Program-made: the position numbers and the translations under genes
Source of the DNA: an uncultured Prevotella sp.
GTDB lineage: Bacteria; Bacteroidota; Bacteroidia; Bacteroidales; Bacteroidaceae
Assembly: GCA_900315775.1 (NCBI GenBank)
Contig: ONAJ01000005.1
Coordinates: 21,871-85,870, forward strand
Direction of reading: 5' to 3'
DNA length: 64,000 nucleotides
The notes under the pieces: model-generated
What the model saw: only the letters and a program-made list of their open reading frames with translations
Database searches by the model: none
Told to the model about the DNA's origin: nothing
In this document: in pieces, positions 21,811-63,345 of the stretch
Layout: every line of letters begins with the position of its first letter
Position numbering within the stretch: the stretch's first letter is position 1

Positions 21811-24134
21811 AACTATCCGAACTAAAGACAGGAGAAAAGGCTGTTATCGTAAAGGTCTCTGGACACGGAGGCTTTCGTAAACGTATCATAGAGATGGGCT
21901 TCGTAAAGGGAAAGACCGTCGAAGTGCTTCTCAACGCACCTCTTCATGACCCCGTGAAATATCGCATCATGGGCTACGAAGTTTCGCTGCGCCATAGCGA
22001 GGCAGAACGTATTGAGGTTGTTGCCGAACAGACCGTCAGAGAAGACAATGCCAACGAGAACGAGGAACTCACCTTGAACATTCCCGAGACAAAACTCTAT
22101 TCCGAAGCTCTCAAGAAACGTCGTACCATAAACGTTGCACTCGTCGGCAACCCTAACTGCGGAAAGACGTCACTCTTTAACTTCGTCAGCGGAGCCCACG
22201 AACGCGTAGGCAACTACAGCGGTGTTACCGTCGATGCAAAGGAGGGTACTGCCAACTTCAAGGGCTACACCTTCAACATTGTAGATCTCCCCGGAACATA
22301 TAGTCTCTCGGCATACTCTCCCGAGGAACTCTATGTGCGTCAGCACATCATCGACAACACCCCCGATATTATTATAAATGTCATCGACTCCAGCAATCTG
22401 GAGCGCAACCTCTACCTCACCACACAGCTCATCGACATGAACCTCCGCATCGTGGGAGCACTAAACATGTACGACGAACTTCAAGGACGAGGCGACAAGT
22501 TGGACATCCGTAACCTTGGCGAACTGCTGGGCTTCCCTCTCGTGCCTACCGTCTTCAGGGACGGACGCGGAGTGGACGACCTCTTCACCACTATTATTCA
22601 GGTTTACGAGGGGACATACAAGAAGCACCCGCTGCGACATATCCACATAAACTACGGACACGAGATAGAGAACGGCATTAGCGACATGCAGGAACACCTG
22701 AAGAGCTATAGCGACATCCGCGAACGTTTCTCTACCCGCTATCTCGCCATAAAACTCCTGGAACACGATCAGGACATCGAGAAAACGCTGTCGTCGCTAC
22801 CCGACTACAACGAGATAATTCTCCACCGTAACGACGCAGCACGACGTATCGAGGAAGAGCTGAAGACCGACTCCGAGACCGCCATCATGGATGCCAAATA
22901 CGGATTCATTCGTGGTGCGCTGCAGGAGACGGGCTATAAGGAGGGCAACGAGAAAGACACCTACGAGACGACGCACCGTCTGGACAGAATAATAACCCAC
23001 AAGTGGCTCGGCTTCCCGCTGTTCTTCGTCTTCCTGTTCGTAATGTTCGAAGCTACCTTCGCCCTCGGACAATACCCTATGGACCTCATAGACTATGGTG
23101 TGGAGTTGCTTTCCGAATGGCTTAACACCATACTCCCCGACGGACCCATAAAGGCGATGATTGTCGATGGAGCAATAGCTGGCGTGGGAGCCGTCATCGT
23201 CTTCCTGCCCCAGATACTCATCCTCTACACCTTCATCTCGTTTATGGAGGACACGGGCTACATGGCACGTGCTGCCTTCATCATGGACAAGCTGATGCAC
23301 CGCATGGGTATTCACGGCAAGTCGTTCATCCCCCTCATCATGGGTTTCGGATGTAACGTCCCCGCTGTTATGGCTACGCGAACCATCGAGAGCAAACGCT
23401 CCCGACTAATCACTATGCTTGTGCTGCCGCTGATGAGCTGCTCCGCGCGCATGCCTATATATATAATGATTATAGGAACGTTCTTTGCGGCACGCTATCA
23501 GTCGCTCATCATGATTTCCCTCTATGCTATCGGCATCATCCTGGCAGTCATCCTGAGTCGCGTGTTTAGCAAGTTCGTCGTCAAGGGCGAGGACACTCCC
23601 TTCGTTATGGAGCTGCCACCCTACCGCCTGCCCACAGCGAAGGCTATACTTCGTCACACATGGGAGAAGGGCAAACAGTACCTCAAGAAGATGGGAGGCA
23701 TCATACTCGTGGCAAGTATCATAGTGTGGGCATTGGGCTACTTCCCCCACGACGACAGCCTCACCGAACAGCAACAGCAGGAGCAGAGCTACATAGGCAT
23801 CATGGGAAAAGCCATAGAGCCTATCTTCGCGGCTCAGGGCTTCGACTGGCGTCTCGACGTGTCGCTGATAGCCGGTGTCGGAGCAAAGGAAATCGTCGCC
23901 TCTACCATCGGCGTGCTCTATCCTAACAACGACGAACTGGCAAACAGCATCACCCCGCTCATAGCCTTCTCGTACCTACTCTTCGTACTCATCTACTTCC
24001 CCTGCATAGCAACGATAGCAGCAATAAAATCCGAAACGGGCTCGTGGCGCTGGGCACTCTTTGCCGCCATCTATACCACCTGTCTCGCGTGGGTTGTCTC
24101 TGCACTCGTTTACAGAATAGGAATTATGCTTTAA
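21807..24134 (+). CDS. feoB: FeoA-FeoB fusion ferrous iron transporter
   Basis: This inner-membrane Fe(II) uptake protein of 775 aa joins both Feo parts. Residues 1-75 are an SH3-like FeoA domain (MKLSELKTGEKAVIVKVSG). The G-protein domain follows, with G1 GNPNCGKTS (114-122), G3 DLPGTYSLS and a helical GDI-like region. The C-terminal half has about ten membrane helices with two Gate domains (LPQILILYTFISFMEDTGY; GFGCNVPAVMATR) and the GVGAKEIV motif. G4 appears as NMYDE in place of NKxD, a deviation seen in some Bacteroidota FeoB. No feoC is adjacent. Confidence 0.94.
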   Translation: MKLSELKTGEKAVIVKVSGHGGFRKRIIEMGFVKGKTVEVLLNAPLHDPVKYRIMGYEVSLRHSEAERIEVVAEQTVREDNANENEELTLNIPETKLYSEALKKRRTINVALVGNPNCGKTSLFNFVSGAHERVGNYSGVTVDAKEGTANFKGYTFNIVDLPGTYSLSAYSPEELYVRQHIIDNTPDIIINVIDSSNLERNLYLTTQLIDMNLRIVGALNMYDELQGRGDKLDIRNLGELLGFPLVPTVFRDGRGVDDLFTTIIQVYEGTYKKHPLRHIHINYGHEIENGISDMQEHLKSYSDIRERFSTRYLAIKLLEHDQDIEKTLSSLPDYNEIILHRNDAARRIEEELKTDSETAIMDAKYGFIRGALQETGYKEGNEKDTYETTHRLDRIITHKWLGFPLFFVFLFVMFEATFALGQYPMDLIDYGVELLSEWLNTILPDGPIKAMIVDGAIAGVGAVIVFLPQILILYTFISFMEDTGYMARAAFIMDKLMHRMGIHGKSFIPLIMGFGCNVPAVMATRTIESKRSRLITMLVLPLMSCSARMPIYIMIIGTFFAARYQSLIMISLYAIGIILAVILSRVFSKFVVKGEDTPFVMELPPYRLPTAKAILRHTWEKGKQYLKKMGGIILVASIIVWALGYFPHDDSLTEQQQQEQSYIGIMGKAIEPIFAAQGFDWRLDVSLIAGVGAKEIVASTIGVLYPNNDELANSITPLIAFSYLLFVLIYFPCIATIAAIKSETGSWRWALFAAIYTTCLAWVVSALVYRIGIML

Positions 24135-54767: not shown

Positions 54768-55148
54768 CTATTCTTTCATTCTCTCCACCACTTCCAAGTC
54801 TGCTGGCAGCCACTTAACGCTTCGGAGTTCGGCTTTTGAGAGCCACCTTGCTGCCTCGTGTTCGTTCAGGTGCATAGCTTCGTCGAGTAATGTGCAGAGG
54901 TAGCAATGCATAGTGAGGTGGAAGGCTGGATAGTCGTACTCTACGGTGGTGAGGAATTCTTCCACGCTGATGTCGGCAGAGAGCTCTTCCTTTATCTCTC
55001 GTTTGAGGGCTTCTTCAGGGGTCTCGCCTGGTTCCATCTTACCGCCAGGAAACTCCCACCAGTCCTTCCAGTCGCCATATCCTCGCTGTGTGGCGAATAT
55101 CTTATCTTCCTTGCGGATTATCGCTGCTACTACTTCTATGTGTTTCAT
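54768..55148 (-). CDS. MutT-type Nudix hydrolase
   Basis: This is a 126-aa nucleotide pyrophosphatase-like protein. The Nudix box runs from G36 to about residue 58 (GKMEPGETPEEALKREIKEE) with the catalytic glutamates present; the box glycine near the end is replaced by serine. EVVAAIIRKEDKIFATQRG and WEFPGGKMEPGE are typical of MutT proteins that clean oxidised dNTPs, although other nucleotides are possible. It is the last gene of the five-gene nuclease-helicase operon, and its ATG overlaps the stop of the 105-aa gene (TAATG). Confidence 0.9.
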   Translation of the reverse strand: MKHIEVVAAIIRKEDKIFATQRGYGDWKDWWEFPGGKMEPGETPEEALKREIKEELSADISVEEFLTTVEYDYPAFHLTMHCYLCTLLDEAMHLNEHEAARWLSKAELRSVKWLPADLEVVERMKE

Positions 55149-55465
55149 TAGATTTCTTCCAATCCTAACGATTTCAGATAGTTATATTTGCCAACCTTAC
55201 AACTCATAAGTTCAGAGAGTTTGACAGCTACTGCCCCCTTATCGTGTCCGGCATTATCCTTGCCATATCGGTTAATCAGGGCTTCTACCTTATTCTTGTC
55301 AAATTCTATCTCGGCAAGGGCTCCCTCCTTTACTTGTTCCTCCGAGGAATCTTCCCATCGAATCAATCCTGTTACCCAAAGCAAACCTATCAAAAGTGCA
55401 ATACACAGAAGTACAATATACATCTTTGTATTTCCACTTTTTCTTTCATCCATAAATTCTTTCAT
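55148..55465 (-). CDS. 105-aa single-span membrane protein with DUF2075-like tail
   Basis: This is a 105-aa protein with a charged N-terminus, one membrane helix (about 15-35) and an acidic soluble domain. I do not recognise a family. Its last 12 residues, YNYLKSLGLEEI, almost repeat the last 12 of the DUF2075 protein encoded at the head of the operon (YNYLKSLGIKEI), and 23 bp are identical at DNA level (55164-55186 and 61241-61263). It starts 16 bases after the PIWI-like gene and overlaps the Nudix gene. It may tether the system to the membrane, but that is inference. Confidence 0.6.
   Translation of the reverse strand: MKEFMDERKSGNTKMYIVLLCIALLIGLLWVTGLIRWEDSSEEQVKEGALAEIEFDKNKVEALINRYGKDNAGHDKGAVAVKLSELMSCKVGKYNYLKSLGLEEI
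55164..55186. repeat. 23-bp direct repeat, left copy
   Basis: It is identical to 61241-61263. Each copy encodes the shared C-terminal YNYLKSLG of two different genes. An 11-base subset (AACGATTTCAG) also occurs at 63436-63446 upstream of the operon. Confidence 0.9.
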
Positions 55466-55481
55466 AAAACTACGTTTTTAA

Positions 55482-57449
55482 TTATATTTCACTCCAATGT
55501 TTACTAAATGCTGTTTCACTAACATCATCTAGGTACTCTTGCAGAAACTTGAAAGGGAACGGATATGTCATCATTTCGTTCCATCGTCCAAATCCAAACC
55601 TCAACATATCCATAATCTCATAAATATCCTTCTCCACATTAGCTTCATTTTCTTTATGAAGAATGAAAATACACCGTACTCTTGGCATACGGTCCATCTT
55701 GGTGCTCTTCATTATTTGCATATTTTCACTATTGGTTCCTGAGAGATAAGCATATGCACCATCAGGTTCTCCATTTAATCCTTCAGTTTTCCATAAATGC
55801 AGCCCAATATAACCTCTCAAATATTTATGCGATTCAGCTTTCCTCTTAAATAAAGACAATGGTCTTCCTTCATTCACAATATCACTGTAAGCCTCATCTA
55901 TAAGACTTACATCCAATATTGGAATTTCGTCTGTATCAATTATTAGATAGACATTATTATTCTTTTTCAGTGCCATATAGTCTCTTGCTCCACGAATAAT
56001 ATCAGGTTTGTTATAGTTTAAATGACTATAAGCAAATTCGTCGAAAAACACAGGCAACTGCTCTGAAGAGAAACCGAATTCTGCAATGTTCATCTTTCCG
56101 CCATCTGTCATCTTTAGTGAAGCGCCAATGACACATCCATCATGAATCTTATATCTGTAAAACTCCCATTTCTCAGAAAGATTGCATAATTGTTGCGGCA
56201 TTTGCCTGTTTATCAAACAGTCTTTCACTAACAGCTCTATCAGAATTCTACGAGCTTCATGAATAGAAAGTTTATCCTCTTTCTCACTATTGTAGAAAAT
56301 CTTATGTTGCAATGCTGTACTAGAATGTGCCAACCTATACAACGATTTCGTGTAATATGTTTGAAGAAGCAACTCATCTTTAGGCTCACATAATTTAATT
56401 ATCAAATCATTTGCTGTTCTCTTTCGGTTGAATATGAGGGAGCCTTGCATGATTTCCTGGAATTGCACTTCAATCTGAGAAATCAAACCATTTGCAGATT
56501 CGCCAAAAGGATTATCAATATAAATAGACTTTCCATTAAGATACTCCGTAATAAATTTAAGCATGTCCCTACTAGGCTTATACTCATCATAATATAGAAC
56601 AGCAGAGTCAACAAATTGGATGGACAACTGTCCTCTATACTTCTCATTTACAGAAGCTATTACCTGATATATAGCAAACAATCTACCATGAGAGTAATCT
56701 TCTGGATTATATGGCCAATATGGTACGATGTTATGCTTGTCAGGGAATCTTTTCTTTTGAACGTAAAAACTTTCAAGTTCTGGCTTAATCCCTCTCATCT
56801 TCCTTAACACAACAGGTTTTACCGCTAAGCCAGACCACCACTGCCCATAAATATCCTTGCTAACTTGGAATACACAAGTTTGTTTCTTTCTAAGTTCATC
56901 AATACTCTTCGGATTTGAGAATGATGTTGTTTTTGCTGTTAGGTTCATGTATTCGTTTACTTCAACCTTCAAACAAACCAACTCTTTCCGACTATGAGGA
57001 ATCAAAAAGTTCTTATCATCACACAGCAACAGGACTCCATTATTATACATCATCCTATCAGGCTTCGTTTTGCCAAGAGAATTGATTGCGAGGGATGCGA
57101 TGATTCGTTGCTGCAATTTATAATCATAGTCTGTCAAATCATCAATACGAGCTCTAATTTGCTCATAGTCCCTGAGGCTCTTCAAGACATCTTGAAGTTC
57201 CTCCTTCTTCATCATTATGAAAAAGCGAACACATGGATATTGAACATCATGCCATTTTGCTCTTATGCCACATACGGATATAAATGGAACATCTGCTAAT
57301 TGTTCGTAAGCTAAGTTCTTGTATTCTTTATCGAGGCTGTAGTAAGAGACAATTGCATATTGAGAGAAAAATGTTTCTCTATCATATTTCACCTCAATTT
57401 TGTTGGTTGTAAGTGGCCAAGCTTTTATTTCTTCCAAGTTCAACTTCAT
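55482..57449 (-). CDS. candidate pPIWI-RE/Argonaute-like protein
   Basis: This is a 655-aa soluble protein without signal or membrane segments. I read it as a shortened pPIWI-RE protein. The N-terminal region (1-200) has LTAKTTSFSNP. A MID-like region follows (about 345-420), with DLIIKLCEP and YTKSLYRLAHSSTALQHKI. A possible RNase H fold starts at CVIGASLKM (439-447) with VYLIIDTDE (500-508). The C-terminus LRFGFGRWNEMMTYPFPF (616-633) resembles the LR...W...t..P.P ending of the family. The first catalytic aspartate is Ala or Ser here, so it is probably a non-cleaving binder. It starts five bases after the helicase-nuclease gene and is AT-rich. An unrelated fold remains possible. Confidence 0.45.
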   Translation of the reverse strand: MKLNLEEIKAWPLTTNKIEVKYDRETFFSQYAIVSYYSLDKEYKNLAYEQLADVPFISVCGIRAKWHDVQYPCVRFFIMMKKEELQDVLKSLRDYEQIRARIDDLTDYDYKLQQRIIASLAINSLGKTKPDRMMYNNGVLLLCDDKNFLIPHSRKELVCLKVEVNEYMNLTAKTTSFSNPKSIDELRKKQTCVFQVSKDIYGQWWSGLAVKPVVLRKMRGIKPELESFYVQKKRFPDKHNIVPYWPYNPEDYSHGRLFAIYQVIASVNEKYRGQLSIQFVDSAVLYYDEYKPSRDMLKFITEYLNGKSIYIDNPFGESANGLISQIEVQFQEIMQGSLIFNRKRTANDLIIKLCEPKDELLLQTYYTKSLYRLAHSSTALQHKIFYNSEKEDKLSIHEARRILIELLVKDCLINRQMPQQLCNLSEKWEFYRYKIHDGCVIGASLKMTDGGKMNIAEFGFSSEQLPVFFDEFAYSHLNYNKPDIIRGARDYMALKKNNNVYLIIDTDEIPILDVSLIDEAYSDIVNEGRPLSLFKRKAESHKYLRGYIGLHLWKTEGLNGEPDGAYAYLSGTNSENMQIMKSTKMDRMPRVRCIFILHKENEANVEKDIYEIMDMLRFGFGRWNEMMTYPFPFKFLQEYLDDVSETAFSKHWSEI

Positions 57450-57454
57450 CTTCC

Positions 57455-60400
57455 TTACTGTACATTTACTAGTTTCCGTAATGTTTCAATCCCTTTGGGA
57501 ATAATGACACCATTCTCATCAATCAGTCCGCCAATTTCATTAATCTCATCCATAAGTGGATCATTGATTTGAAGGATGTTCACCGTTATTAATCTACAAT
57601 TAAGTCGAGCTATTTTCCTTTGACGTTTTTCTTTTGTTTGCATATCATTGGGATTGTCATTGTGAGCTACTTTAGGATTCATATTTTTTACATCGAAGGC
57701 AATTTTATAACTTCCGTCAGGATTACAAACAACAAAGTCGGCTAATTCATAATCTTTACCTTCTAAATGTTTAAAGTCTTTCTCTTTACATTCTGTATAT
57801 TCAAATAGCAATGCCTTAAATGCCTCTTCTCCTATTTCACCAGCATAATCGGAACGTAATATCTGTGGATGTAGAATCAATCCATCTCCTTTCCAATTTG
57901 TAGCAAAACCATTTTTCTCAAAATGATTTCTTATCACTTCATTCTTCATCAACACATCTAGACGCACATCGGATGGAGATACATAGTAGGGATTAATCCC
58001 ATTTCTGATAGGACAAATCTTATTCTTCTCATAAAAGAAATAATAGCCTCCTTTTTCGTCACGTTGCCAATTGCCATAACACTTAGTTATGAACGTAAGG
58101 TTTCGGTCCTCTTCGTCCAAATCATCCCATCCTGATATTACAGGCTTCGTAATAATAGCACGCTTATAACTTTGATTCATCCTTTGACTTGCCAAAATAT
58201 TATATGGAATATCTCCATTATTATCTTCATCTTCAAAGTCTTCATCTAAATCTTCCTTGTGAGGTGTGAAATAAAGAGCTTGTCTACGCATACTGTCAAG
58301 CATATATTGAGCTTGATTAGCTGTATTGCAAAGAATTGTTTCTTCTGTGGATGCTATTGTATCATTGTTTGTAAGGTGTTCTAAGATATGGTTCACTAAT
58401 TCTCGATATTCTTTTGTGAGAGATTTCTGATAAATCGAAGGTTCAAAAAAGGGAGCCATAGACTCGTCGTACAGCAAATATGTTGTATGCGGCTTATTTC
58501 GGGTGCGACATAAACGTCCAACAGCTTGTTCTATAATTGTTTGAGCCCATGCTGCCTTATCCTTTGCAATACCAGGATCTCTTTTTTCACTAAAATAAAA
58601 AGTATTTGTTAATGCTTGATAAAGCCATCTAGCGACATCATTTCTTGAAAGGCATCCTCTTTCAAATAACATCATCAAAACTAACATGGCATTATAGAAA
58701 CTCTTTTCAAATGTAGATTCATAGCCATCCTCGTTCATCATAAGATAGTTGGTGGGAGATTGAAGATATAATGCATCCCAGTCTTTCTTTAATTTCTTGC
58801 CATCTTCTACCCAATTATCACCTGAGATATAGTCAAGTCCTTCTGGAATTTCATATTGCATATTCGTTCCGGCTTTGAAACTTCCATATGCGGAAACTAA
58901 CATAATCTTGGCATCTTTGTCTTGACTTAACTCTACCAATATATTGTTTTCCACTTCCTCTAGCTCTTTGGTAATTCTTATATGGTTATTTTCCCAATCT
59001 GTTGGAATTTCACCATCAAGTTTAGATGGCATTTCTTCATATGTGCCATCAATTAGACAACTTAGTGTCATTATTTGATCACTATCCTTTTCTCCTGTAC
59101 GATTTTGGAAGAATATCATACTTCGAATACCATCATGAGTGATGAACCAATAATATGCTTCTATGAATTGGAAAAGCCTGTATAAATGGAAAAAGGTGTT
59201 TTTTATTTCCTTATCATATTTCCTTAGATTACGTACAGTAATACGGAACCATTCTTCATCAAGACCTTCTTCTTTGGCTTTTGAAGAAAACATCTCTTTG
59301 TATTTTTGTGGCAATACAAGATGGTTTTCACGTTTATCCTTGTATTCGTAATGTTCAACAGGAATAACTTCAATTTTATGTTCTTGGGGATATGTCGCTG
59401 CAACTAAATCATCAAATTTGATTTTGTCTTCAGTCGATAATATATGAAATCTATCACCCAATATTTCCTTTAGATAGACGAGGTCAAAGTTACTTACTAC
59501 AGATTTATTTGAAGCAGTTGCTGAACATAAAACAACAGTATTATCATCAAAATGGGTTAGATTAAGTAATATCTTCTCTGGTGTGTTTGATATTTCACGA
59601 CTTGATAATCTCACTCTATGTTGATTGTCTCTTTCGTCAATTTCTTCTTGGAAGAATTGAACTCCTTGTGAGTAAACAGAATAGTCTGGGAGTTTTATCG
59701 GATTGGCATCTTTGGTGACAATATGGTTTTTCCGGTTTGTCATAAACTCCGTTTGTTGTTGCTCGAAATGGAATTCGGACGCAGACTCAAACCTTGAAAA
59801 GAACGTGTGTATTTCTCGCTCTAATGTGGGGTATCCGAGAAATGTCTTTTCTCCATTGTTGTTTATTTGGCGTATTTCCTCATCAAACTTAATACGACTA
59901 TCTTCTAATGCTTCTTTAATAACACTTCTAAATTGGGATTTTACGGAGGTAATATTCCTTGTAATAAGAGTTAGGAACTCATCCAAAGGTACAACAACAG
60001 AGTAATCTGAGATTAATGAGTCTTTGTCATTGCTGTGTACCAAACTAAGGTGCCTATTCCCTTTCTTATAACAAACAAAAGAATTTGTCTTATCGTCACG
60101 TTGTGAGATACTCAACTTTACTGGACCAGAGAAAAAGACACCTCTTCTAAATTCTTCTATTTCTTCAGGTGTATCTAAAAAAATACTATTAAAGGATTTT
60201 GTTTCTCCAAATACTTTCTCCCAATTAGTATTTATAATCGACTTTGCTTTATGGACACAGTCTTCCAAACGAGTTCCATAATACGAATTAGAAGTATATT
60301 CTGGACTTTCAAGCAAGGATTTGTACTGCAAGAAACCATTATAACCTTTTGCAAATCTCTTATTTCCAAAGGTAGTATCTATAGCTTGATCTATGATAGC

Positions 60401-61207
60401 GTTTCTCATGGCAATAGCAGCCTGATCCGACTCATCAAATAGGATAAGAGTCTTTTTCCCCTTTTTTGAAAAGTCTGAAATGCTAAATTTCTCATCTATG
60501 ATAGGATCTATACCATACATCGCCTTATGAACAGTCATAAGAAGTACTTTCTTATTTTTATAGTCAACTTGAGGGTATACTTCTCTTAGATGTGGGAAAA
60601 GTATATTTAATCTTGAAACAGATACATGCTTATATTGTTTTGTGCTTTCCAAGTGTTTTTTAAAGTTCTCAAAAAACACGCGTACTGCTTTACGCAAATT
60701 GGCTTCGTTTTCATCTATCTGCTGACGAAGATATTCATTGTTATTAGACTCATACGTCTTAACTAACCCTGATAAACCCTCATATGTCTTCTTTACCCAA
60801 TTAAAACTATATCTTAAATCCGTTACCTTTGTATCTTTTCTTTTTTGGTCATCGATCTGCAATTCCATTTCTTCAAGCAAAGAAGAAAAACTTGAGTTCT
60901 TGATTGCTTTCATGATAACCTCAGGATTATTCTCTATTACCAACTTGTCCTTTGGTTTTATCTTGCTTTCAGGAGTTGATATAAACCTTTCTATTTCACG
61001 GTCCATCCCATTCACAAGTTTGTTTTGTACACATAGAATGATAATCCTATCAAAATGGAGTGGATAATACTCACACGTTAGTTTTCCAATAGTATATGAT
61101 TTTCCACCACCAGTTGCTATATCACAGATATGAAGACCTGGAGTCACATAATTCTTGAAAATTTTTTCAACGTGAGCACTTAATTTCTCTTTATTCCCTA
61201 ATTCCAT
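57455..61207 (-). CDS. superfamily 2 helicase with C-terminal PD-(D/E)XK-like nuclease
   Basis: This is a 1250-aa predicted DNA helicase-nuclease. Walker A is ATGGGKS (31-37), Walker B LILFDESD (254-261), motif III CSATA (561-565), a motif V-like SAYGSFKAGTN (772-782) and motif VI QAVGRLCRTRNKP (894-906). The long insertions and motif VI recall DinG-type and type III restriction helicases. The end of the protein has GEIGEEAF (about 1123-1130), ELADFVV (D1157) and FDVKN (D1172, K1174), a good PD-(D/E)XK pattern. It lies 17 bases after the DUF2075 gene and five before the PIWI-like gene. Codon use is AT-rich compared with both flanks, which suggests acquisition by transfer. Confidence 0.72.
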   Translation of the reverse strand: MELGNKEKLSAHVEKIFKNYVTPGLHICDIATGGGKSYTIGKLTCEYYPLHFDRIIILCVQNKLVNGMDREIERFISTPESKIKPKDKLVIENNPEVIMKAIKNSSFSSLLEEMELQIDDQKRKDTKVTDLRYSFNWVKKTYEGLSGLVKTYESNNNEYLRQQIDENEANLRKAVRVFFENFKKHLESTKQYKHVSVSRLNILFPHLREVYPQVDYKNKKVLLMTVHKAMYGIDPIIDEKFSISDFSKKGKKTLILFDESDQAAIAMRNAIIDQAIDTTFGNKRFAKGYNGFLQYKSLLESPEYTSNSYYGTRLEDCVHKAKSIINTNWEKVFGETKSFNSIFLDTPEEIEEFRRGVFFSGPVKLSISQRDDKTNSFVCYKKGNRHLSLVHSNDKDSLISDYSVVVPLDEFLTLITRNITSVKSQFRSVIKEALEDSRIKFDEEIRQINNNGEKTFLGYPTLEREIHTFFSRFESASEFHFEQQQTEFMTNRKNHIVTKDANPIKLPDYSVYSQGVQFFQEEIDERDNQHRVRLSSREISNTPEKILLNLTHFDDNTVVLCSATASNKSVVSNFDLVYLKEILGDRFHILSTEDKIKFDDLVAATYPQEHKIEVIPVEHYEYKDKRENHLVLPQKYKEMFSSKAKEEGLDEEWFRITVRNLRKYDKEIKNTFFHLYRLFQFIEAYYWFITHDGIRSMIFFQNRTGEKDSDQIMTLSCLIDGTYEEMPSKLDGEIPTDWENNHIRITKELEEVENNILVELSQDKDAKIMLVSAYGSFKAGTNMQYEIPEGLDYISGDNWVEDGKKLKKDWDALYLQSPTNYLMMNEDGYESTFEKSFYNAMLVLMMLFERGCLSRNDVARWLYQALTNTFYFSEKRDPGIAKDKAAWAQTIIEQAVGRLCRTRNKPHTTYLLYDESMAPFFEPSIYQKSLTKEYRELVNHILEHLTNNDTIASTEETILCNTANQAQYMLDSMRRQALYFTPHKEDLDEDFEDEDNNGDIPYNILASQRMNQSYKRAIITKPVISGWDDLDEEDRNLTFITKCYGNWQRDEKGGYYFFYEKNKICPIRNGINPYYVSPSDVRLDVLMKNEVIRNHFEKNGFATNWKGDGLILHPQILRSDYAGEIGEEAFKALLFEYTECKEKDFKHLEGKDYELADFVVCNPDGSYKIAFDVKNMNPKVAHNDNPNDMQTKEKRQRKIARLNCRLITVNILQINDPLMDEINEIGGLIDENGVIIPKGIETLRKLVNVQ

Positions 61208-61224
61208 AAGACCATTATAGATTC

Positions 61225-63345
61225 CTATATCTCTTTAATCCCTAACGATTTCAGATAGTTATACGTGCCATCATAGAACTCGGGCAGACGTGTGGGGTCT
61301 TCAGGGAAGCCTTCTTGGGTAAGGCGGTTGTTGCCCTTGGGGATACATATGATTATTCCCTGACGGGCACGAGTGAGTAGTACTCGATAGGCGTTGAGCA
61401 TGTACTTTCTATTTTCCTTGTTGTTTTCCGGATTCCACTTGTTCTTGCCGTTGAATTTATAGAAGTTCCATGTACCATTTTCGTAACGCATATCTGCATC
61501 CCAGAGTACACAAGCATAGTCGAGTTCGAGTCCTTGGACTTGTATTTCTGTGGCGGCGTCCTCAAGATAGTTTGATGAGCGAATGTCGGTCTTGTCTTCA
61601 AGGAACCAATGGACGGCGTTATCTTCATCTTGTGCAAGAATATGAACTGCTAAGGGCTTAAAGCGAGCAGCCACTTTGGTTACGAGGACTCCTGTTTGCT
61701 GGGTACCACGAGCCTGCTTCCTTAACCAGGCTCGTGCCGTATCCATGTCGCGTGTCAACATTATTGGGTAGTTTCTGCTTGCTACGTCTTTGTAAAGTTC
61801 TGCAGCGTCGGAACGGAATGCGAGCATAGACTGCACAAATGCCGAGAGGGTTTCTGCACGGAAGGAACGTAGGCTAACGGCAAGGTGAAGATCTTCTGCG
61901 AAGGTCACCTTGTTGTTGTCTTTAAGTAACTCGTTTACACGTCCTTCTGCATATTCGGCATCGGTAAGTTTATCGGAGATATAGACGTCCCAATGTTTGA
62001 ACATTGAGTTTAAGGCTTTTATCCATTCTGTGATTCCTGCCTCGCCGGTATTTATTTCCTGACCTCCTCCGACAAGACAAACTATTACTGCCCAATCTTC
62101 ACGCTGGTCGAGTGACCAAATGAGGAATTCTGCTTCTGACAAGGGGAAGTTTGGCACTTTTAGTTTGTTGCCGTAAGTACCGCCTCGCTTCAAATAATTA
62201 GCTATACGGTCGTGCGTCCAACTGCGTTGTGCTTCGTCGAAGATAGCTACGTGTTCTACTTCGCCGTAACCAGTATGTTCCAAATGAATGGCTTTTTCGG
62301 GGTCTATCTCTACTACTCCATTCTCAACTGGGTTCTTTATCTTTGCCAGCATATTGTCACGATAGCGATGGATAATTTGAATGAATTCGCTAACTTCACG
62401 ACGTGAATCGGAGAGATTTTTTCGTTCTCCTCTGGCTGCACATTTCTTCTGGTTGTCGCGTGCCAAAGCTTCTGTCAATACGGCTACGAGTGGTCCATTT
62501 CCAGACAGATAAACGGCGCCGTTTTCTTTGTCCATTTCGCCATCTCGATAGGTCTGCTTGATAGCTACATCAAGTCCTACCAACGTCTTACCAGCTCCAG
62601 GAACTCCTGTCACGAAACATATACTTTTCTTCTTCTCCTTCTTACTCTTATCTATAACTTGAAGAATGTAGTTGATGGTTCTATCTGTTGAAACCTTATC
62701 GGCCTCATGACGTGTAATGTCTTCAACAGAATGATTCTCGTAGAGGGCACGTGCTGCCTCAATAATGGTTGGCGTCGGTGTGTAGGGGCTGATAGTCCAA
62801 TTATCTATAGTTCCTTCGCTTGTTGCTTTCGCATGATTTAAGACACTCGATATCACCTCCTGCAGACGTTCTTCGCCGGCAATCAACGGATTATATATCT
62901 GGTCTTCGTAAACCGACGGCTTGAATTCTGTTGTTGCCGTAGAGTGATGTGTGGGCACCAAAATGGGCACAATCACTCTATCATGACTAAAGCGGTGAAA
63001 GTTCTTCAGGTCGAGTGCATAGTCCATCACCTGCTCTACATCGGACTGAAGGGCATCCTTCTGCCCTACCTTGAATTCAAGGCAAAAAATTATTCCACGA
63101 AGTAGCAATACAACATCTATTCGCTTGCCTAAACGTGGGATGTCGTACTCAAAAATGATCTGAGCATTTTCCTCCTTCCAGGGTTGCAATACCTGCTGTA
63201 AGATGTCTATTTCTCCCTTCCACGCTTCATCCGTAGTAGTGAGGGCATCACCATGATAGTTATTATGGAGAGTGCCGAGCACCTCAAGGGGCTTCTGTTG
63301 CAGGAACTCCTTGAATGTTGCTATGTAAAGACATCTGTTCGCCAT
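61225..63345 (-). CDS. nuclease-helicase of the DUF2075 (Schlafen group 3 helicase) family
   Basis: This is a 706-aa cytoplasmic protein. The N-terminal domain (about 40-130) has a PD-(D/E)XK pattern: E45, RIDVVL (D77), CLEFKVG (E90, K92). The helicase-like part has Walker A GVPGAGKT (247-254), Walker B HVAIFDEAQR (D370, E371), a GGGQEIN motif, and NAYRVLLTRARQG as motif VI. This is the layout of DUF2075 proteins, which occur in defence and repair settings. It heads the five-gene operon. The promoter box is at 63376-63383 and a dyad overlaps its -33 region. Base composition is closer to the chromosome average than that of the next two genes. Confidence 0.85.
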   Translation of the reverse strand: MANRCLYIATFKEFLQQKPLEVLGTLHNNYHGDALTTTDEAWKGEIDILQQVLQPWKEENAQIIFEYDIPRLGKRIDVVLLLRGIIFCLEFKVGQKDALQSDVEQVMDYALDLKNFHRFSHDRVIVPILVPTHHSTATTEFKPSVYEDQIYNPLIAGEERLQEVISSVLNHAKATSEGTIDNWTISPYTPTPTIIEAARALYENHSVEDITRHEADKVSTDRTINYILQVIDKSKKEKKKSICFVTGVPGAGKTLVGLDVAIKQTYRDGEMDKENGAVYLSGNGPLVAVLTEALARDNQKKCAARGERKNLSDSRREVSEFIQIIHRYRDNMLAKIKNPVENGVVEIDPEKAIHLEHTGYGEVEHVAIFDEAQRSWTHDRIANYLKRGGTYGNKLKVPNFPLSEAEFLIWSLDQREDWAVIVCLVGGGQEINTGEAGITEWIKALNSMFKHWDVYISDKLTDAEYAEGRVNELLKDNNKVTFAEDLHLAVSLRSFRAETLSAFVQSMLAFRSDAAELYKDVASRNYPIMLTRDMDTARAWLRKQARGTQQTGVLVTKVAARFKPLAVHILAQDEDNAVHWFLEDKTDIRSSNYLEDAATEIQVQGLELDYACVLWDADMRYENGTWNFYKFNGKNKWNPENNKENRKYMLNAYRVLLTRARQGIIICIPKGNNRLTQEGFPEDPTRLPEFYDGTYNYLKSLGIKEI
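61241..61263. repeat. 23-bp direct repeat, right copy
   Basis: It is identical to 55164-55186. It encodes the C-terminal YNYLKSLG of the DUF2075 protein. The two copies bracket the helicase-nuclease and PIWI-like genes. Confidence 0.9.

Follow-up and report, generated by a model that had tools for sequence, protein, structure and literature searches.

The 64,000-nucleotide stretch analysed here, referred to as the window, comes from an uncultured Prevotella sp. (positions 21,871 to 85,870 of contig ONAJ01000005.1, assembly GCA_900315775.1), and its right edge is the contig end. It carries two adjacent genes that encode a helicase-nuclease of 1250 amino acids (aa) and a 655-aa protein with a predicted Argonaute fold. 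We consider it very likely that these genes form a DdmDE-type operon for defence, located on the chromosome, in which DdmE has diverged strongly. The pair would most likely represent a variant of DdmDE, a defence known to act against plasmids, in which the Argonaute half has changed beyond the reach of the annotation models tried. An initial annotation, made from the sequence alone, had given both open reading frames (ORFs) the correct coordinates; they lie on the minus strand, with five bases (57450-57454) between them (Table 1).

By its sequence, the 1250-aa protein is a DdmD-type helicase-nuclease. The PADLOC DdmD model matches it over residues 540-1137 (2.1e-22) and recognises each of its 21 aligned homologues, while Pfam returned ResIII alone, below threshold. 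A single-sequence search of solved structures with the helicase retrieved DdmD chains (1.6e-18), and profile A2, which was built from the 21 homologues, matched DdmD with 2.6e-30 at positions 485-997 and 1079-1141. The helicase retrieved six solved sequences, each of them a DdmD; five are deposited as 'Helicase/UvrB N-terminal domain-containing protein' and one as DdmD, and the titles of the complexes read DdmDE. The motor and nuclease motifs are intact: Walker A TGGGKS, DESDQA, SAT and QA(V/I)GR are kept in 21/21 homologues, as are the nuclease residues E1124, D1157, D1172 and K1174, and the PD-(D/E)XK tail that the initial annotation had described (D1157...D1172-x-K1174) is invariant throughout.

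The relationship of the 655-aa protein to DdmE emerges from its predicted structure. AlphaFold models were made for two members of its family that are 47% identical, using alignments of 35 and 50 rows with 21 rows in common. For both models the first six fold matches are solved DdmE, well above other Argonautes, with 450-582 residues aligned at 12-16% identity. These alignments begin at residue 7-16 and extend to near the end, the N-terminal half included, whereas the SPARDA and SPARTA rows in the same fold comparison begin at 287-288. The MID-PIWI-like character proposed beforehand for the C-terminal half is borne out by the fold searches, which superpose this half on Argonaute MID-PIWI; in the ending LR(616-617)...W623...P630-F-P632, also noticed earlier, P630 is conserved in 63/63 aligned homologues and W623 and P632 in 62/63 each. 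As the titles of 9iw3 and 8u0j state, its nearest relatives of solved structure are complexes with guide and target DNA. The earlier impression that the protein is about a third shorter than usual for a PIWI protein does not hold in comparison with DdmE, because the PADLOC DdmE model has 687 positions and the Lactobacillus casei DdmE chain is numbered to 715. Given these models, the 655-aa protein is most likely a divergent DdmE with a predicted Argonaute fold, unrecognised by the annotation models tried.

In the candidate MID pocket, Y366, Q381, H382, R401 and K409 are invariant in 63/63 members and R372 is found in 62/63, which suggests a conserved binding pocket, part of which is carried by a loop (residues 369-375) with a model confidence below 50. 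The Y-Q-K spacing, read by hand, resembles the motif by which classical MID domains hold the 5' end of the guide. In a hand alignment of the RNase H site, the first catalytic Asp position corresponds to Y433/K434 (K in 62/63), the third to D505 (kept in 61/63) and the last to Q637 (44/63); from these positions it would follow that the PIWI/RNase H domain is inactive. DdmE is itself reported as catalytically inactive in an excerpt of the review PMC12409362.

The two genes also occur together elsewhere. Two peptide patterns for the 655-aa family, run against a species-genome collection, detected 25 loci. Their records all carry titles of Bacteroidota of the Bacteroidales type, a range that leans to close relatives because of the patterns used. 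In 20 of the 25 the gene immediately upstream encodes a DdmD homologue, and these 20 are all the full-length loci outside the genome of the window; the remaining five are L004 and L022, which contig ends truncate, and L024-L026, where only C-terminal remnants are left. Since 393 homologues of the 655-aa protein are found at E ≤ 1e-3 (120 listed) and the helicase comes first in every full-length locus elsewhere, the ORF pair is not a product of chance. The intergenic gap ranges from -17 to +15 bases in the 19 tabulated loci, and in L020 the genes overlap by 4 bases. Pairwise identities of the two proteins correlate strongly (r = 0.89, 20 gene pairs from the window and 19 loci; 0/2000 permutations as high), although this correlated divergence could also be explained by shared ancestry alone. 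No third gene family is common to more than three loci, and the neighbours otherwise vary.

Several points weigh against a DdmDE assignment. Sequence methods connected the 655-aa family neither with DdmE nor with other Argonautes: the PADLOC DdmE model (PDLC04131) matches 0/63 members at E ≤ 1, a sequence comparison with solved structures yielded chance matches only (best E 1.3), and a profile comparison with nine Bacteroidota Piwi proteins reached a probability of 0.2, this last being a thin control because five of its eight other rows are at most 20% identical to the first. The predicted fold, being a model, is no proof of guide binding. On the helicase side, the DdmD alignment of profile A2 covers only the two segments given above, so that Walker A and the DE motif in the N-terminal third, as well as D1157, D1172 and K1174, are assigned by motif. 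Further scans of the 655-aa family produced matches that we dropped as chance: in Pfam (35 members), RecO_N_2 in 4/35 (best 0.016) and 13 further models in one member each; in PADLOC (63 members), six models in one or two members each (best 2.8e-4); and in NCBIfam (63 members), 17 models in one to four members each (best 0.0056). A PHROGs search gave nothing relevant.

By analogy with DdmDE work elsewhere, and following the mechanism in an excerpt of PMC12409362, we propose that the pair may use a guide, recruit the nuclease and bring about plasmid loss as follows. The 655-aa protein would be an Argonaute-fold sensor, probably lacking slicing activity, that would hold a short guide strand by its 5' end in the MID pocket. 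The guide would base-pair with the DNA of an invader, in the likeliest case a plasmid or another mobile element, and the opened DNA would be passed to the 1250-aa DdmD-type partner. This partner would load on the non-target strand, translocate by its superfamily 2 (SF2) helicase motor, and cut the DNA with its C-terminal PD-(D/E)XK domain.

The initial annotation had instead read the pair as a compact pPIWI-RE system, in which an R/E-type PIWI protein and a DinG helicase fused with a restriction nuclease would act on R-loops. What stands of this claim is the Argonaute/PIWI-like fold and the helicase-nuclease fusion partner; the PIWI-like C-terminal ending and the presence of helicase and nuclease in one operon agree with it, as does a weak PADLOC typeIV_DinG match in 2/21 helicases (best 4.6e-4). 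Against the pPIWI-RE reading, the DdmD model matches 21/21 helicases and the fold match of the partner is DdmE. A DinG-type iron-binding region is expected to hold four cluster cysteines, whereas in the 21 helicases the stretch from Walker A to the DE box has only C45 and C59 as invariant cysteines. As described in an excerpt of PMC3702460, pPIWI-RE systems have a conserved R and E, a DinG helicase with an iron-binding cysteine-rich region, and a separate restriction endonuclease (REase). The likeness to these three-gene systems lies in a PIWI-type protein, a helicase and a restriction-fold nuclease in one operon, but here the helicase is without the DinG-type cysteine region, the nuclease is the helicase tail, and the gene order differs from REase, then DinG, then PIWI; moreover, any third gene is common to at most three loci. 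The pPIWI-RE Pfam models match 0/35 family members at E ≤ 1, in a run without a positive control, and PF13032 and PF18157, which are in the library, had no match in the genome of the window nor in 14 controls. Mainly on helicase type and gene order, we rejected membership in pPIWI-RE, which we regard as the least probable of the explanations weighed here. Scarcely more credible is a four-part unit of the Schlafen-type helicase upstream, DdmD, DdmE and the MutT protein downstream. The window genes do lie on one strand with small gaps, and the Schlafen gene adjoins the pair in L006 (DdmD-DdmE-Schlafen-MutT) and L015 (Schlafen-DdmD-DdmE). However, the pair is without a Schlafen gene in 18/20 full-length loci (within the fetched flanks, some of them short), and the Schlafen gene is without the pair in 11/11 full-length places elsewhere (within the fetched 4-13 kilobases), with MutT directly behind it in five of these. 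A fixed Schlafen-DdmD-DdmE-MutT machine was therefore rejected, because the parts occur apart.

An improbable, though less remote, alternative is that the Argonaute-fold protein has lost the use of a guide and is an adaptor that brings the helicase-nuclease to its site of action, either a DNA structure or an intermediate of replication. The sequence of the 655-aa protein is far from the guide-binding Argonautes compared, the poorly modelled loop lies in the candidate MID pocket, and the MID motifs of ApsB and DdmE differ in an excerpt of PMC11096173; the conservation of all six pocket residues and the guide- and target-bound state of the closest solved relatives argue against an adaptor. A bolder reading, which we regard as possible but doubtful, is that the 655-aa family stands apart from both DdmE and ApsB, as a third class among the Argonaute partners of the DdmD/ApsA helicase-nucleases. 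This class would reside in exchangeable defence islands of rumen and gut Bacteroidales, would use a MID pocket of its own (Y...R...QH...R...K), perhaps therefore with another guide or target, and would escape present defence-finding models, which would then report an orphan DdmD at most.

The preferred reading, a DdmDE-type operon, is consistent with the comparison to DdmDE of Vibrio cholerae and L. casei. In DdmDE as known, DdmE carries a guide of short ssDNA and frees DdmD from an autoinhibited dimer, and plasmids are eliminated in vivo. Like DdmDE, the pair consists of two adjacent same-strand genes, a layout that the window shares with all 20 full-length loci elsewhere; the helicase shares sequence homology with DdmD and the plan of an SF2 helicase with a C-terminal PD-(D/E)XK domain, and the partner has a similar size and the predicted DdmE fold over nearly its whole length. 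Unlike DdmDE, the pair occurs in Bacteroidota, the partner is only 12-16% identical to solved DdmE and is missed by the PADLOC model, and the N-terminal third of the helicase is without a sequence match to DdmD. ApsAB of Escherichia coli likewise combines a helicase-nuclease and an Argonaute-like partner in an operon, and is related to the pair because one broad family comprises ApsA and DdmD, with Argonaute-like partners of two types (excerpt of PMC11096173). Compared by published motifs alone (GFGKS, DELH, SAT, QAVGRVER and D...DVK for ApsA, from the same excerpt), the helicase motif set is much like that of ApsA. ApsB, in that excerpt, has the MID motif Y-x3-K...QG...K and is said to be without the PIWI RNase H fold, whereas the partner here has Y366-x5-R372...Q381-H382...K409 and a predicted PIWI half. 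The ApsB motif was not found in the MID region, since K/R stands at +6 of Y366 rather than +4 and H follows Q381 in 63/63; the conserved Y252/R256 and Y303/K307 lie outside this region. Short prokaryotic Argonaute (pAgo) systems (SPARTA, SPARDA) join a MID-PIWI-only Argonaute with a TIR, Sir2 or nuclease-APAZ partner, an arrangement not seen here; the N-terminal half aligns with DdmE and the partner is a helicase-nuclease. Long Argonautes (Thermus type, eukaryotic Ago2 and PIWI) are also among the closest known systems.

Few systems are known to clear plasmids, DdmDE and ApsAB among them. With a divergent Bacteroidales branch, guided plasmid defence would reach into major bacteria of gut and rumen, and it would become clear that surveys can overlook such systems when the Argonaute half diverges too far for sequence recognition. 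In the literature searched, DdmDE together with Prevotella gave no paper, and DdmDE with Bacteroid- gave PMC11411939, an excerpt of which deals with other matters, and PMC10239892; the main DdmDE structure papers lie outside that literature. Our naming follows PMC12409362, as an excerpt of PMC12904381 swaps the names DdmD and DdmE relative to it.

Named strains among the matches include Xylanibacter brevis ATCC 19188, Prevotella lacticifex JCM 34664 and Segatella copri strain Indica. The genome of the window was the only one to match profile A1 among 251 genomes of its family, and the only one to match PADLOC DdmD among 296 genomes of its phylum. PADLOC DdmE matched 0/198 genomes of the phylum, which does not imply absence, because the controls were also without a match. 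Helicase tblastn in plasmid and phage records gave no match, and a viral contig scan found 15 stretches that fit a pattern, with no relative among them by the profile.

Lone C-terminal DdmE-like pieces without a helicase are present in L024 (10037-10687), L025 (9986-10633) and L026 (9869-10411), the last of these in assembly JAKSUA01, which also has the intact pair of L016. We rejected these pieces as working half-proteins; their ragged starts and the absence of a helicase nearby make them look like remnants, which suggests loss of the DdmE-like gene.

Table 1. Features of the gene pair and its neighbours, in window numbering
Feature	Position	Strand	Basis
DdmD-type helicase-nuclease, 1250 aa	57455..61207	-	PADLOC DdmD; solved DdmD chains; DdmD model in 21/21 homologues
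Walker A TGGGKSY, residues 32-38 of helicase	61094..61114	-	Identical in 21/21
PD-(D/E)XK nuclease core, residues 1124-1174 (E1124, D1157, D1172-x-K1174)	57686..57838	-	Four residues invariant, 21/21
DdmE-like Argonaute-fold protein (predicted), 655 aa	55482..57449	-	
Candidate MID guide 5'-end pocket, residues 366-409 (Y366, R372, Q381-H382, R401, K409)	56223..56354	-	Hand assignment by likeness to the classical MID motif
Predicted PIWI/RNase H-like C-terminal domain, residues 428-655	55485..56168	-	Secondary structure and DdmE/Argonaute superposition; catalytic-site mapping by hand
Schlafen group-3 helicase, 706 aa, PADLOC candidate PDC-S41; probably separate cassette	61225..63345	-	Pfam SLFN-g3 5.3e-69; PADLOC PDC-S41 7.3e-250
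105-aa protein, one membrane helix read by eye; membership doubtful	55148..55465	-	No family match above cut-off
MutT/NUDIX hydrolase, PADLOC candidate PDC-S07	54768..55148	-	NCBIfam MutT 2.3e-28; PADLOC PDC-S07 2.9e-52

The genes that separate the Schlafen gene from the MutT gene in the window are those of the DdmDE pair and of the 105-aa protein; the Schlafen gene ends 17 bases upstream of the helicase gene. We read the Schlafen/MutT and DdmDE arrangement as two stacked defence cassettes. The Schlafen search covered 151 genomes of the family, of which 19 match; the count used above comprises the 11 full-length places outside the genome of the window and leaves out L042, where the gene is split in two, and partial, weak matches. 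The N-terminal nuclease motif of the 706-aa protein was read by eye. The 105-aa gene begins 16 bases downstream of the 655-aa gene and overlaps the gene of the 126-aa MutT protein by 1 base. Its product, with a probable membrane helix, was found in the genome of the window only among 101 genomes of the family and in 0/25 related loci, and library scans gave no family match for it above cut-off.

Ten chosen flanking genes were scanned with the PADLOC models. Six gave matches, in part weak ones, and these speak for the defence reading: a methyltransferase-HIT fusion, an HNH nuclease (weak), RmrA-like, GmrSD-like and WYL proteins, and the candidate PDC-S22; four are without a match. Two conserved genes lie directly upstream of the DdmDE pair in L007 (4150-6188), L020 (4040-6051) and L023 (4225-6191). 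In L007 they encode an HNH endonuclease and a methyltransferase-HIT fusion, and the two-gene set of these three loci is possibly an accessory cassette.

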